A program made the translations under genes and the position numbers. Below the pieces are notes generated by a model that had not been told where the DNA came from, did not search any database, and saw nothing but the letters and a program-made list of their open reading frames with translations. A stretch of 64,000 nt of DNA from Antedon mediterranea (lineage: Eukaryota; Echinodermata; Crinoidea; Comatulida; Antedonidae), in contig NC_092671.1 in assembly GCF_964355755.1 (NCBI RefSeq), positions 16,771,501 through 16,835,500 on the forward strand, given 5' to 3'. Within the stretch, counting starts at the first letter, position 1. Each line of letters begins with the position of its first letter. Positions 46,801 to 52,800 of the stretch are shown piece after piece.

Positions 46801-49800
46801 ATACAACATGTTAATTAGGCTGTTCAAGAATGAAGTACTAAATTTATGCGCAAAGATATTTATAGTAGTGATATGCTTAAATATAGTATTTGTATGACAT
46901 CATCATGTCCATATATGAGCACCGTTGTTTTGTCCCATAAAGTTTGATAGTGTAGACAGAGCTTAATGAGTACAACTTTAAATTGACTAATAACTTGTAT
47001 CTGTTTAAACTTTTATAAAACTTTCATACCACCCCTTTCTTTGCTACAGCGTCCATTTCGATTTCTCTGGCACCTTCTACAAATTTAGTTATTACTACTG
47101 GATGTTCTTGTGAGACTCTTGATGCTTCCTCCAAGAATTTCCGGAGTTGGTCTGGCCCGTAAGCTACATTCATTGCAGAGCCACTGAAAATGTTTGTAAA
47201 ATCAATAATAAAGCATATGATGTATACAAAACAAGATATAAATAAAATTCAGTTTTAAGCATAGAGAAGAATATTGTTGGTACAGTAGATACATATTATG
47301 AGTGAGGGAAAAGCAGTTATATTTTGAGTCAAATAGATGAGTGGTTAAGGCAGGGGCGGTGTTTACTGTACCTAAAGAGCCAACAATATTGGCATGGGTT
47401 CGATACCGACTCGCTTCTAGTTGGTGGAACAAGTCTTCTCGGATAGGACAATAAACTGTAGGTTCAGTGTACACAGTTATAACCTGTGTGCACTTTAAAG
47501 AACATAGTTCATCATTCAAGACAAGTAGGGCGTACTCCAGTGAACTGTTTCACAACATAGCCCCTGATAGGACAGTGATTAATTTACTATTGGTAATCCT
47601 TGGTCACATGTACCAAAGAATATATATCACAAGAATGAGTAATCCGCGATTTTCCCTGTAACAGTAATATTGTCCATGTGGTAGGGCGCCGTCATAAGTG
47701 AGGATGTATCTGGGATGTATACAACGGTTTCACTAATCAAAGGCTGGACCACCGGTAGTATTTTCATGATAAAAAATGTTATCAACTACATGCCAACATC
47801 ATGTTAAATGCTGTTTGGATATTTAATTGTTCGTTTTGTGCAATTTATTTAGTAAAAACTGCCGTATAAACAGTTCGCTTTATCAACCGGGCGCTACGAT
47901 AGCGTGACCGGGCGTGTTGGTGTTTACGCGTTTTCACGAAGGATAGTTTAATAATATTCCTATATTTAACTTGTTTCTGGTAAAACAAATAAATGTTAAT
48001 GATATTTAACATTTTATCCTATTAATAACATGTATTTTATACTAATTTATATCATAAAAACAATACTTAATTTACCGGGCGTAGAGTAGTACACGGCAAT
48101 GGTAAAGAATAGGCTGTGCTGAGTAACGATTCGTTGATTTTTGGTGTTGCTGTGTTAGGCCTTTTTTGTGAACTAATTTAGCATGTTAGTAAATAATTGT
48201 CTGTAAAAGTGAATGTACACTAGTTTGTTAATAAATATGTATTATAAAATAGTTTACAATTGCAAAATATATTATCATTCATAATTCTATTTAATGTGAC
48301 ATGTATAATATCTATTAAATCAAGTCTTATTTAGTATGTATACATCCGCCCTTATGAGGGCGGGCATCACTCTCTGGAGCTCTCTGTTACAAATTTCTCA
48401 TGCAAAAATCGCGGAATACTCATTCTTGTGATATATATTCTTTGCATGTACCTAAAGACATATAATACAAATTAAAATATGCGAGCATAATTAGCAGGAA
48501 CATGAACAAAAACAATATGGAAGAAGAAATGAGATGAATATAAGAATATGTCACCACAAAGGACAAAGAAATTCTTTATTTCTTCAGGGAGAAAGTACAT
48601 AAGAAGGCTTCAGGTTGACATGGAATAGGGGAGCAAGTATAGTGACTCCCTCATAAAGAAAGGGAATTTGTGACACTGTGTTATTCTTACCTAAGTACAT
48701 AAGAAGGCCGAAGAAAACAAGGATAACCAACAGGGCTTCAGGTTGACAGGGAATAGGGGAGCAGGTATAGTGACTCCCTCATGAACAAAGTGAATTTGTG
48801 ACACTGTGTTATTCTTACCTAAGTACATAAGAAGGCCGAAGAAAACAAGGATAACCAACAGGGCTTCAGGTTGACAGGGAATAGGGGAGCAGGTATAGTG
48901 ACTCCCTCATAAAGAAAGGGAATTTGTGACACTGTGTTATTCTTACCTAAGTACATAAGAAGGCCGAAGAAAACAAGGATAACCAACAGGGCTTCAGGGT
49001 GACATGGAATAGGGGAGCAGGTATAGTGACTCCCTCATAAAGAAAGGGAATTTGTGACACTGTGTTATTCTTACCTAAGTACATAAGAAGGCCGAAGAAA
49101 ACAAGGATAACCAACAGGGCTTCAGGTTGACAGGGAATAGGGGAGCAGGTATAGTGACTCCCTCATGAACAAAGTGAATTTGTGACACTGTGTTATTCTT
49201 ACCTAAGTACATAAGAAGGCCGAAGAAAACAAGGATAACCAACAGGGCTTCAGGTTGACAGGGAATAGGGGAGCAGGTATAGTGACTCCCTCATGAACAA
49301 AGTGAATTTGTGACACTGTGTTATTCTTACCTAAGTACATAAGAAGGCCGAAGAAAACAAGGATAACCAACAGGGCTTCAGGTTGACAGGGAATAGGGGA
49401 GCAGGTATAGTGACTCCCTCATGAACAAAGTGAATTTGTGACACTGTGTTATTCTTACCTAAGTACATAAGAAGGCCGAAGAAAACAAGGATAACCAACA
49501 GGGCTTCAGGTTGACAGGGAATAGGGGAGCAGGTATAGTGACTCCCTCATGAACAAAGTGAATTTGTGACACTTTGTTATTCTTACCTAAGTACATAAGA
49601 AGGCCGAAGAAAACAAGGATAACCAACAGGGCTTCAGGTTGACAGGGAATAGGGGAGCAGGTATAGTGACTCCCTCATGAACAAAGTGAATTTGTGACAC
49701 TGTGTTATTCTTACCTAAGTACATAAGAAGGCCGAAGAAAACAAGGATAACCAACAGGGCTTCAGGTTGACAGGGAATAGGGGAGCAGGTATAGTGACTC

Positions 49801-52800
49801 CCTCATGAACAAAGTGAATTTGTGACACTGTGTTATTCTTACCTAAGTACATAAGAAGGCCGAAGAAAACAAGGATAACCAACAGGGCTTCAGGTTGACA
49901 GGGAATAGGGGAGCAGGTATAGTGACTCCCTCATGAACAAAGTGAATTTGTGACACTGTGTTATTCTTACCTAAGTACATAAGAAGGCCGAAGAAAACAA
50001 GGATAACCAACAGGGCTTCAGGTTGACAGGGAATAGGGGAGCAGGTATAGTGACTCCCTCATAAAGAAAGGGAATTTGTGACACTGTGTTATTCTTACCT
50101 AAGTACATAAGAAGGCCGAAGAAAACAAGGATAACCAACAGGGCTTCAGGGTGACATGGAATAGGGGAGCAGGTATAGTGACTCCCTCATAAAGAAAGGG
50201 AATTTGTGACACTATGTTATTCTTACCTAAGTACATAAGAAGGCCGAAGAAAACAAGGATAACCAACAGGGCTTCAGGTTGACAGGGAATAGGGGAGCAG
50301 GTATAGTGACTCCCTCATGAACAAAGTGAATTTGTGACACTGTGTTATTCTTACCTAAGTACATAAGAAGGCCGAAGAAAACAAGGATAACCAACAGGGC
50401 TTCAGGTTGACAGGGAATAGGGGAGCAGGTATAGTGACTCCCTCATAAAGAAAGGGAATTTGTGACACTGTGTTATTCTTACCTAAGTACATAAGAAGGC
50501 CGAAGAAAACAAGGATAACCAACAGGGCTTCAGGTTGACAGGGAATAGGGGAGCAGGTATAGTGACTCCCTCATGAACAAAGTGAATTTGTGACACTGTG
50601 TTATTCTTACCTAAGTACATAAGAAGGCCGAAGAAAACAAGGATAACCAACAGGGCTTCAGGTTGACAGGGAATAGGGGAGCAGGTATAGTGACTCCCTC
50701 ATGAACAAAGTGAATTTGTGACACTTTGTTATTCTTACCTAAGTACATAGGAAGGCCGAAGAAGACAAGGATAACCAACACTGGCAGCAAACTCTAATGC
50801 CTCATTCTGTAAGAGCAAATAGTAAGTTATTGCCTAGTAGTAGGTGTTGTTATACAGTCTGCATATATAGTTATGCACATTCAATTATGAAAAACACAAC
50901 ACACAAAATAGAAAATTTCAGCACTTTATTTTAAAATGTTTAAGTCCTGAATCCTGTATGCGTCATGAATAACAAATTCACTAAATGGATTCACTATGTC
51001 ATTGTTGGTCTATATTTTTTTTCTAAATTCATAGATTTTACCCTGAAGGTGGCAGTACTCAATTCAATTCTATTAGCTACCGATGCCATTAAGGGCAAAA
51101 ATCCAAATAAACGGAAAATACAATTAAGAGCAGTTTTAATATCATCTGGGAGGGCAGAAAAGGGGTTAATATGACCTTATACGGAAAGGTAGAGTATATT
51201 TACCAATGATGTCAGGGCTTTCCAAGGAGCTTGGTTGACATCAATTTCATCTAAGATAGCTGAAAATACAGACCTAAGAACAAATACAGATTTTAACAAT
51301 TGGCAGATTTAAATAAACTGATAACATACTGATGAATGTTTTTCGCATTTTAATACAAATATATCACTCGTTTTGTATGTTGATGGCAACTACAATATCC
51401 AATGTACCTTTCTTCAGCAGCATCAATCTGTAGTGGGTTGGTTCCTAGTACATTTACACCATTGTTATAAAGTGGTAAAGCAAGGTTGTTTGGAATTTGC
51501 CCACCAACAGATATAACAAGTCCACCACAAGCCTGCAAGAATTTAAAAATAAATTATTAATTATTATTAATATGTATTCAGCAAGAACTAATTTAACAGG
51601 AGTATGTAATAGGCATAAGCCTAAACAGACGAACTACTTTTTTACTGCATCATTAAATATATAGTACAATTTAAACAGTCATTGTTATAGATATACTGTA
51701 CTATAATAAGTACTAGATAGTTATTCATTAGGGAGAGGGGACCACACGACTACGATCAACTATTCGAGGTTTTATGCATTATGCGCTTAAAAGTCCAAAT
51801 TTATTATTTATCATTATTACTCAAATTTACGCCCCAAAGCAGTCACACATTACACTGGCATTTACAAGAGCGTAAATGCTAGATAATTTATCAAGAAAAT
51901 ATTTATTTCTGTGGTTTTACAAAAATATGTGTTATGATTTATATATCATTTTCATATACCAAATAATATTTGAACTACTACTGTATTAGAATCTTTTATA
52001 TATGTGGTTTCAAAATAATAACAGATGATTCACTCTATATAGTAAAAAAGAAAATCAAAATAAAAGTCCAGTATACCATAAAAACAAATCATATGTACAG
52101 TAATGACTATGAAATGTAAATTTAAGAGATCAGATTTTAAAAATAAAATAAATCTGGAGTAATAGTTTATGATTAAGTAAAAAGTTGATAATATTTCCAC
52201 TTACTTCACGTTCGTAGATATCCAACACTCGTTCCAGAGACAACTCTTCAAAGTAGAGACGATCGCATTCATCAAAATCTGTGCTGACTGTTTCGGGGTT
52301 GTGATTAACAACAACAGTCTTACGCCCCATTTCACGCAGAGATCGAATACATGATACAGCACACCAATCAAATTCAACGCTGCTTCCTAATAACAACACA
52401 TAAAATGAAATATACTATTGTTTTTTAATATTATAAGAGTATTATATTTAAATTAACAATAACAATTGTATCTATATCATACCGCAAACCACAAACAAAC
52501 AAACTGTCTCTTACCAATGTGATAAGGTCCGCATCCGAGTACCATCGTGCCATAATCATTAAATTCAACATCATGTTCCTAAATAAAACATAAGGTATGT
52601 ATCATGAAAATGTCTGTTTTGTCTGTAATATATAATTTAAATTATCATTATATTAAAATCACTTACCATTCCATTGTACGTGTTATATAAATAATTTGTC
52701 TTTGCTGGATATTCGGCTGCCATTGTGTCGATCTATAGAAATGCAAAAATATAAACATTATTTTATTTCTTCTTTATACTGGGTGACCTCTTCATTACAA

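Follow-up and report, generated by a model that had tools for sequence, protein, structure and literature searches.

The human gene IFI6 (6-16) has a minisatellite at the end of an exon, with a repeat unit of roughly 12 bp. It is cited as a source of multiple splice donors; two downstream repeat units are reported to be used, and three mRNA species are formed (PMC4526556, citing Turri et al., 1995, NAR 23:1854). Duplicated splice signals have also been linked to the gain of introns. A tandem duplication of AGGT can lead to a GT...AG intron between the two copies, which leaves the protein unchanged (Rogers, 1989; examples ATP2A1 and the RNA-dependent RNA polymerase RdRp of potato; PMC4974935), and among the 24-bp arrays of fission yeast there is one gene in which an intron spans four duplicates (PMC4974935). 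The zero-nucleotide ratchet points of Drosophila consist of a juxtaposed acceptor and donor, AG/GT (the slash marks the splice junction here and below), and a downstream donor is able to define there the cryptic exon that these points need (PMC8605326). For the [D] stwintrons of Lipomyces an origin by donor duplication has been suggested, and in one species the intervening sequence can be excised either at once or in two steps, with no difference in outcome (PMC7138796). Here we describe a tandem array of 128-bp units, which crosses the splice donor of exon 25 of a carbamoyl-phosphate synthase (CPS) gene of the crinoid Antedon mediterranea and thereby adds 16 decoy donors to intron 25. It lies in a window of 64,000 nucleotides, the whole stretch of DNA that was analyzed (assembly GCF_964355755.1, contig NC_092671.1, positions 16,771,501 to 16,835,500). 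The array is probably a recent and mostly neutral minisatellite, which would remain silent in the mRNA through choice of the first donor.

Like the minisatellite of IFI6, the crinoid array lies at an exon-intron boundary and has a donor in every unit, and therefore the view of the preliminary description of this locus, that no case of this kind has been described, cannot be maintained. However, the crinoid unit is 128 bp long and contains 42 coding nucleotides, and each decoy, if used, would add an immediate stop. The array also appears to share its duplicated AG/GT segment with intron gain by tandem duplication. Whereas the classic model starts from an exonic piece whose duplication yields a new intron, and in potato the piece crosses an acceptor (PMC4974935), the duplication in the crinoid array crosses an existing donor, so that potential new introns would lie inside an old one. 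With the Drosophila ratchet points the array has in common that AG/GT is juxtaposed and a donor lies downstream, but it comprises 16 identical tandem candidate sites with a weak acceptor score in a short intron. As in the Lipomyces [D] stwintrons, the donor of an existing intron is duplicated. There, however, duplications of 4-7 nt led to nested introns, whereas here 128 nt are found duplicated 16 times. In the open-licence literature searched, no description was found of an array this large whose units each contain the end of a coding exon, which is a weak negative result.

The array and its host gene

Tandem Repeats Finder (TRF) reports one single array at this place (Table 1), with a period of 128, 17.0 copies, 98% matches, 0 indels and a score of 4147. 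Each unit consists of the last 42 nt of exon 25 followed by the first 86 nt of intron 25. Between 48593 and 50806 the minus strand carries 17 occurrences of AGGTAAGAAT, at intervals of exactly 128 bp. The 14-mer TAGGTAAGAATAAC, searched with up to one mismatch allowed, is present 17 times in the window, always exact and always within the array, while 0.03 occurrences are expected from shuffles; the array is certainly beyond chance. In the rest of the window no further unit was found, and the longest exact match outside the array has 13 nt. The 128th base of the unit deviates in the last copy, at the point where the array breaks off. The preliminary description had derived the 128-bp unit from the exon end, the donor and the intron, repeated with no drift in period, and TRF as well as the donor-anchored spacing bear this out. 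Its count of 42 exonic nucleotides is right, but the 83 nt that it gave are slightly off, as the intronic part has 86 nt. It had furthermore named 16 strong decoy donors and an immediate stop on read-through, and both were found: TAG/GTAAGAAT is identical in 17/17 donors, i.e., the true one and the 16 decoys, and translation beyond the true donor gives ...SYVLR directly followed by a stop codon.

The host gene encodes a CPS1/CPS III-type carbamoyl-phosphate synthase, an enzyme of the urea-cycle type, on the minus strand and is nearly complete within the window. A fragment of its protein matches mitochondrial CPS1 in PDB (5dot, presumably the human entry). The draft protein shares 84% identity with that of the feather star Anneissia japonica (Crinoidea), and it is at most 72% identical to the other 119 proteins among the best 120 of 7985 matches. 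Between 63.8 and 43.2 kb 30 introns were modelled, 28 of them by script, and junctions 8 and 17 were placed by inspection. Over this modelled stretch the gene looks intact, with the N-terminal end beyond the window. The name exon 25, which was already used in the preliminary description, is valid only as a count from the first exon inside the window. As tblastn (E up to 1) gave no match in the window for residues 1-40 of the A. japonica protein, exon 25 probably has a higher number in the complete gene. Exon 25 has 22 complete codons, and 22/22 residues are identical to A. japonica CPS (tblastn). The true acceptor of exon 25 has a weight-matrix score of 7.8, which is inside the range of 4.2-17.6 of the 30 modelled acceptors. 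Introns 1-30 other than intron 25 have 86-1206 nt, and introns 31-33 have 10.5, 5.4, and 4.2 kb. The short A. japonica model had raised the suspicion that crinoids have lost the C-terminal CPS domain, which was ruled out by three C-terminal exons located downstream. These three exons are absent from the A. japonica database model (1389 aa), the end of which corresponds to the start of the 10.5/5.4/4.2-kb introns here, and the public A. japonica CPS model is probably truncated.

Table 1. Features of the CPS locus and of the array in intron 25 (positions within the window).
Feature	Position	Strand	Basis
CPS1/CPS III-type gene, 31 exons	43213..63778	-	tblastn with A. japonica CPS and GT-AG gene model
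Three further C-terminal CPS exons	32717-32619, 27251-27078, 22866-22771	-	similarity search downstream of exon 31
Exon 25 true 3' splice site (...TTTGCTCTTACAG), outside the repeat unit	50807..50831	-	gene model
Exon 25, 68 nt, last 42 nt = exonic part of repeat copy 0	50739..50806	-	tblastn and GT-AG gene model
True donor TAG/GTAAGAAT, first base	50738	-	gene model
Intron 25, 3555 nt; longest among introns 1-30, shorter than introns 31-33	47184..50738	-	gene model
Tandem array with 17 copies of a 128-bp unit (42 nt of exon end, GTAAGAAT, 78 nt of intron)	48606..50780	-	TRF and unit alignment
16 decoy donors, first base 50738 minus 128k (k = 1-16: 50610 down to 48690), AG directly before each	48690..50610	-	motif search
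Shortened final exon remnant TTCTTATGTACTT, 13 nt, without donor; single-copy intron after it	48593..48605	-	sequence inspection
AATAAA hexamer past the array	48575..48580	-	motif search
Exon 26; acceptor ...ACATTTTCAG	47030..47183	-	tblastn and gene model

Choice among identical donors

Most plausibly the array arose like any ordinary minisatellite, through tandem duplication of a segment in which the 3' end of exon 25 meets the 5' end of intron 25, and later grew to 17 copies. Whenever a duplication crosses a donor, the intact exon with its acceptor keeps the first copy, and the array would therefore be nearly silent in the mRNA if this acceptor pairs with the first donor. That donor gives the shortest exon (68 nt) and would be preferred by exon definition together with commitment to what is transcribed first. 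The decoys themselves seem to lack an acceptor with a score typical of good real ones; it is probable that U1 binds them only transiently and that they leave with the intron. Slips would meet a stop directly past the junction and presumably end in nonsense-mediated decay. The layout may also provide a second safety feature: owing to the terminal AG of exon 25, any slip to decoy k is repairable in principle, and the computed geometry allows the first donor to be spliced to the AG of copy k. This reading is supported by the intact gene model and by the match of exon 25 and its flanking exons to A. japonica. Of the three functions or fates that were initially considered, namely a U1 sink, an influence on splicing speed and tolerated junk, the last is the most likely one. 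The claim that the splicing machinery must choose the first donor holds as the expected route, but it is not the sole conceivable one, as the geometry of the AG/GT boundaries would permit a later donor to be used and then corrected by second splicing.

The true donor has a U1 duplex energy of -9.4 (7th of 30 donors) and a weight-matrix score of 10.55 (in the top 7 of 30), and the decoys are as strong. Use of decoy k gives an exon of 68 + 128k nt, in which without repair the stop follows right after residue 23 of the exon frame (translated for k = 1, 2, 3, and 16). A 45-nt in-frame decoy exon starting from CTGAAG/CCC was rejected, since its AG is not among the 14 best AG entries listed for intron 25.

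The variation among the copies bears on the age of the array. Compared to the true exon the decoys differ at 2/42 exonic positions, both being C to T changes common to all decoys. Copies 1-16 vary at 7/127 positions compared, every one of them intronic, and the mean pairwise identity of the copies is 97.9%. The chance of all variable positions being intronic is 0.027 for seven independent sites and 0.13 for four linked events, which gives no firm indication that the decoy donors are under selection. Decoy donors free of mutations are to be expected in a young array. Two other arrays of the window are equally uniform (98-99%), further ones show 86-96%. Since variant types recur at a nine-unit shift (6/8 positions match in their order; permutation P = 0.047), growth of the array by block duplication is suggested. 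The position of the array needs no special cause, because a random 128-bp segment in the 20.6-kb span of exons 1-31 covers a donor with a probability of 0.18 (any junction, 0.34), and one out of the five arrays longer than 300 bp in this gene covers a junction.

Several points weigh against a neutral array with first-donor choice. The exon formed with the first decoy has 196 nt, and since this falls in the range of 64-237 nt of exons 2-30, exon size alone cannot exclude the first decoy; it is a better argument against the far ones. Copy 0 has a predicted probability of 0.0026 that its donor is open, compared to 0.0003-0.0030 for the decoys, which makes it the second of 17. That the decoys are hidden by RNA folding was ruled out, as the predicted accessibility is similar for the true donor and the decoys, and folding as predicted would offer no strong reason for favouring the first donor. 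Moreover, among identical donors competing in vitro the one nearest to the acceptor is favoured, and this would be the last decoy here. Finally, selection would also leave all decoy donors unmutated, and the stricter of the two counts (0.027) leans to selection.

As each decoy equals the true donor in strength and read-through stops at once, the array might act as a leaky or regulated poison, in which the extended exon 25 runs into the TAA, the transcript is degraded, and CPS output is lowered in proportion to the copy number. AG/GT repair, if it occurs, would blunt such an effect, and we judge this role to be very improbable. An assembly artefact or a wrong copy number might be suspected from copies that are 98% alike on average, yet several variant types occur among them in a non-trivial order, neither flank is disturbed, and the gene runs on correctly to either side, which makes this explanation very improbable. 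It had also been proposed that the decoys act as a sink, gathering U1 small nuclear ribonucleoprotein (snRNP) and so suppressing premature polyadenylation in the intron. U1 does suppress intronic polyadenylation sites in animals, and this role speaks for the proposal (PMC3826338), as does the AATAAA just past the array. However, intron 25 outside the array has two AATAAA in 1422 nt, i.e., 1.41 per kb, which is no special density and is below the 2.08 per kb of introns 1-30 without intron 25, so that the decoys are not placed at an excess of AATAAA. Introns 31-33 are longer and contain 2.48, 2.79, and 1.42 AATAAA per kb without a donor array. In their 20 kb only one donor-like site scores at least 10.5, and this is the position of the donor of exon 32. 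As these longer introns match or exceed intron 25 in AATAAA density but lack a donor array, the proposal finds no support, and a U1 sink appears very improbable.

Zero-nucleotide boundaries and possible recursive removal

Because exon 25 ends in AG, every copy boundary reads AG/GT (17/17), which is the form of a zero-nucleotide recursive site. When the first donor is joined to the AG of whichever copy, an identical donor is formed anew, and 2000/2000 random stepwise removal chains led to the correct exon 25-26 join; this follows from the layout and describes a possibility, not a use. The boundaries might accordingly serve as ratchet points on the way to exon 26, with wrong choices repaired likewise and always the same mRNA as the result. 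This would be recursive splicing, which we consider unlikely here. Equally unlikely in our estimate is its extension to an error-proof splice array, where the intron acts as 16 interchangeable 128-nt introns joined by zero-nucleotide exons and any of the 17 donors gives the same mRNA. The introns would be interchangeable because exon 25 ends in AG and its pyrimidine-rich tail is possibly a passable 3' splice site.

Recursive removal is favoured by the boundaries and simulated chains themselves and by the length of 128 nt, which is normal for introns of this gene (86, 88, 128, and 134 nt are present). Furthermore, decoys 1-15 have an equal donor 128 nt downstream, and a donor downstream is what Drosophila recursive exons require (PMC8605326); for the last decoy, intron 25 contains no downstream donor of equal strength. 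The decoy AG has a pyrimidine content of 0.78 (-35 to -4), which is above that of 28/30 true acceptors and is reached by 0.1% of 926 other AGs, and the AG-free stretch of 43 nt upstream of it is reached by 9% of these AGs. Among the 22 AG/GT exon ends, which were taken from 32 exon ends (the 30 modelled ones plus exons 31 and 32, with donors placed at AGGTAAG), the end of exon 25 is the richest in pyrimidine (0.78, next 0.56). However, this measure was picked after the sequence had been seen, and by matrix the end of exon 25 is third of the 22 and not first. The weight-matrix score of the decoy AG is 3.34 (-20 to +3), under all 30 true acceptors (lowest 4.2), and with the wider matrix (-25 to -1) it is 0.52, level with the weakest of the 30 (0.5-14.9) and reached by 29% of the other AGs. 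The best match to a branch point is only 4 of 5 (GTTAT). Moreover, six AGs of intron 25 outside the array outscore the acceptor of exon 26, which scores 4.67 when it is left out of its own matrix. Known ratchet points are described in long introns (PMC8605326). Finally, 12 AG/GT sites outside the array, in introns 25, 28, 29, and 31-33, combine an acceptor score of at least 4.2 with a passable donor, i.e., both scores at least equal the weakest true ones, and none of the array sites does so. AG/GT sites as such are therefore not special, as 12 better ones occur in the introns of the gene outside the array.

Three of the sites outside the array may be listed individually. The ratchet-like AG/GTACATGC at 48452 (minus strand) belongs to intron 25 and follows the last decoy donor after 238 nt; its acceptor score of 10.7 ranks within the upper half of true acceptors, and its donor score is 6.9. 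The second site of intron 25 among the 12 is located at 47372, and a ratchet-like AG/GT with an acceptor score of 12.1 was found at 25188 in intron 33.

Further repeats and meaning of the array

Besides the array in intron 25 the window contains other repeats. A second young array in intron 1 (62528-63285; 85 bp, 8.9 copies, 98%) lies close upstream of exon 2 and does not cover the acceptor. Minisatellites were found in intron 9 (57771-58152; 36 bp x 10.5), in intron 31 (34263-34715; 15 bp x 30), where a unit length divisible by 3 keeps several frames open, and outside the modelled gene (1392-2190; 97 bp x 8.2). A 40-bp inverted pair, 97.5% alike, is located in intron 25 beyond the array (47614-47653 and 48405-48444), and sequences related to the adjoining stretch 47563-47617 occur at 29.9 and 43.5 kb. 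A dispersed element is present at 39129-39630, 59149-59293, 21060-21163, and 46861-46943 in copies that are 81-90% alike. It ends like CTCTGTCTACACTATCAAACT, the reverse complement of which occurs near the copy at 46.9 kb, and its 21-bp unit is present in 14.9 copies at 39.2 kb compared to 2.3 copies at 59.2 kb.

The choice between identical donors has been approached by reporter work with two donors. The crinoid locus is a natural test of how the spliceosome chooses among 17 identical donors that share one 42-nt exonic context. If the array were indeed error-proof, growth of such arrays would be limited to exon ends that can also act as acceptors. More generally, the locus suggests the rule that donor-crossing tandem duplications should be tolerated mainly at exons with a terminal AG preceded by a pyrimidine-rich tail, since there the duplicates would stay silent no matter which donor is chosen.

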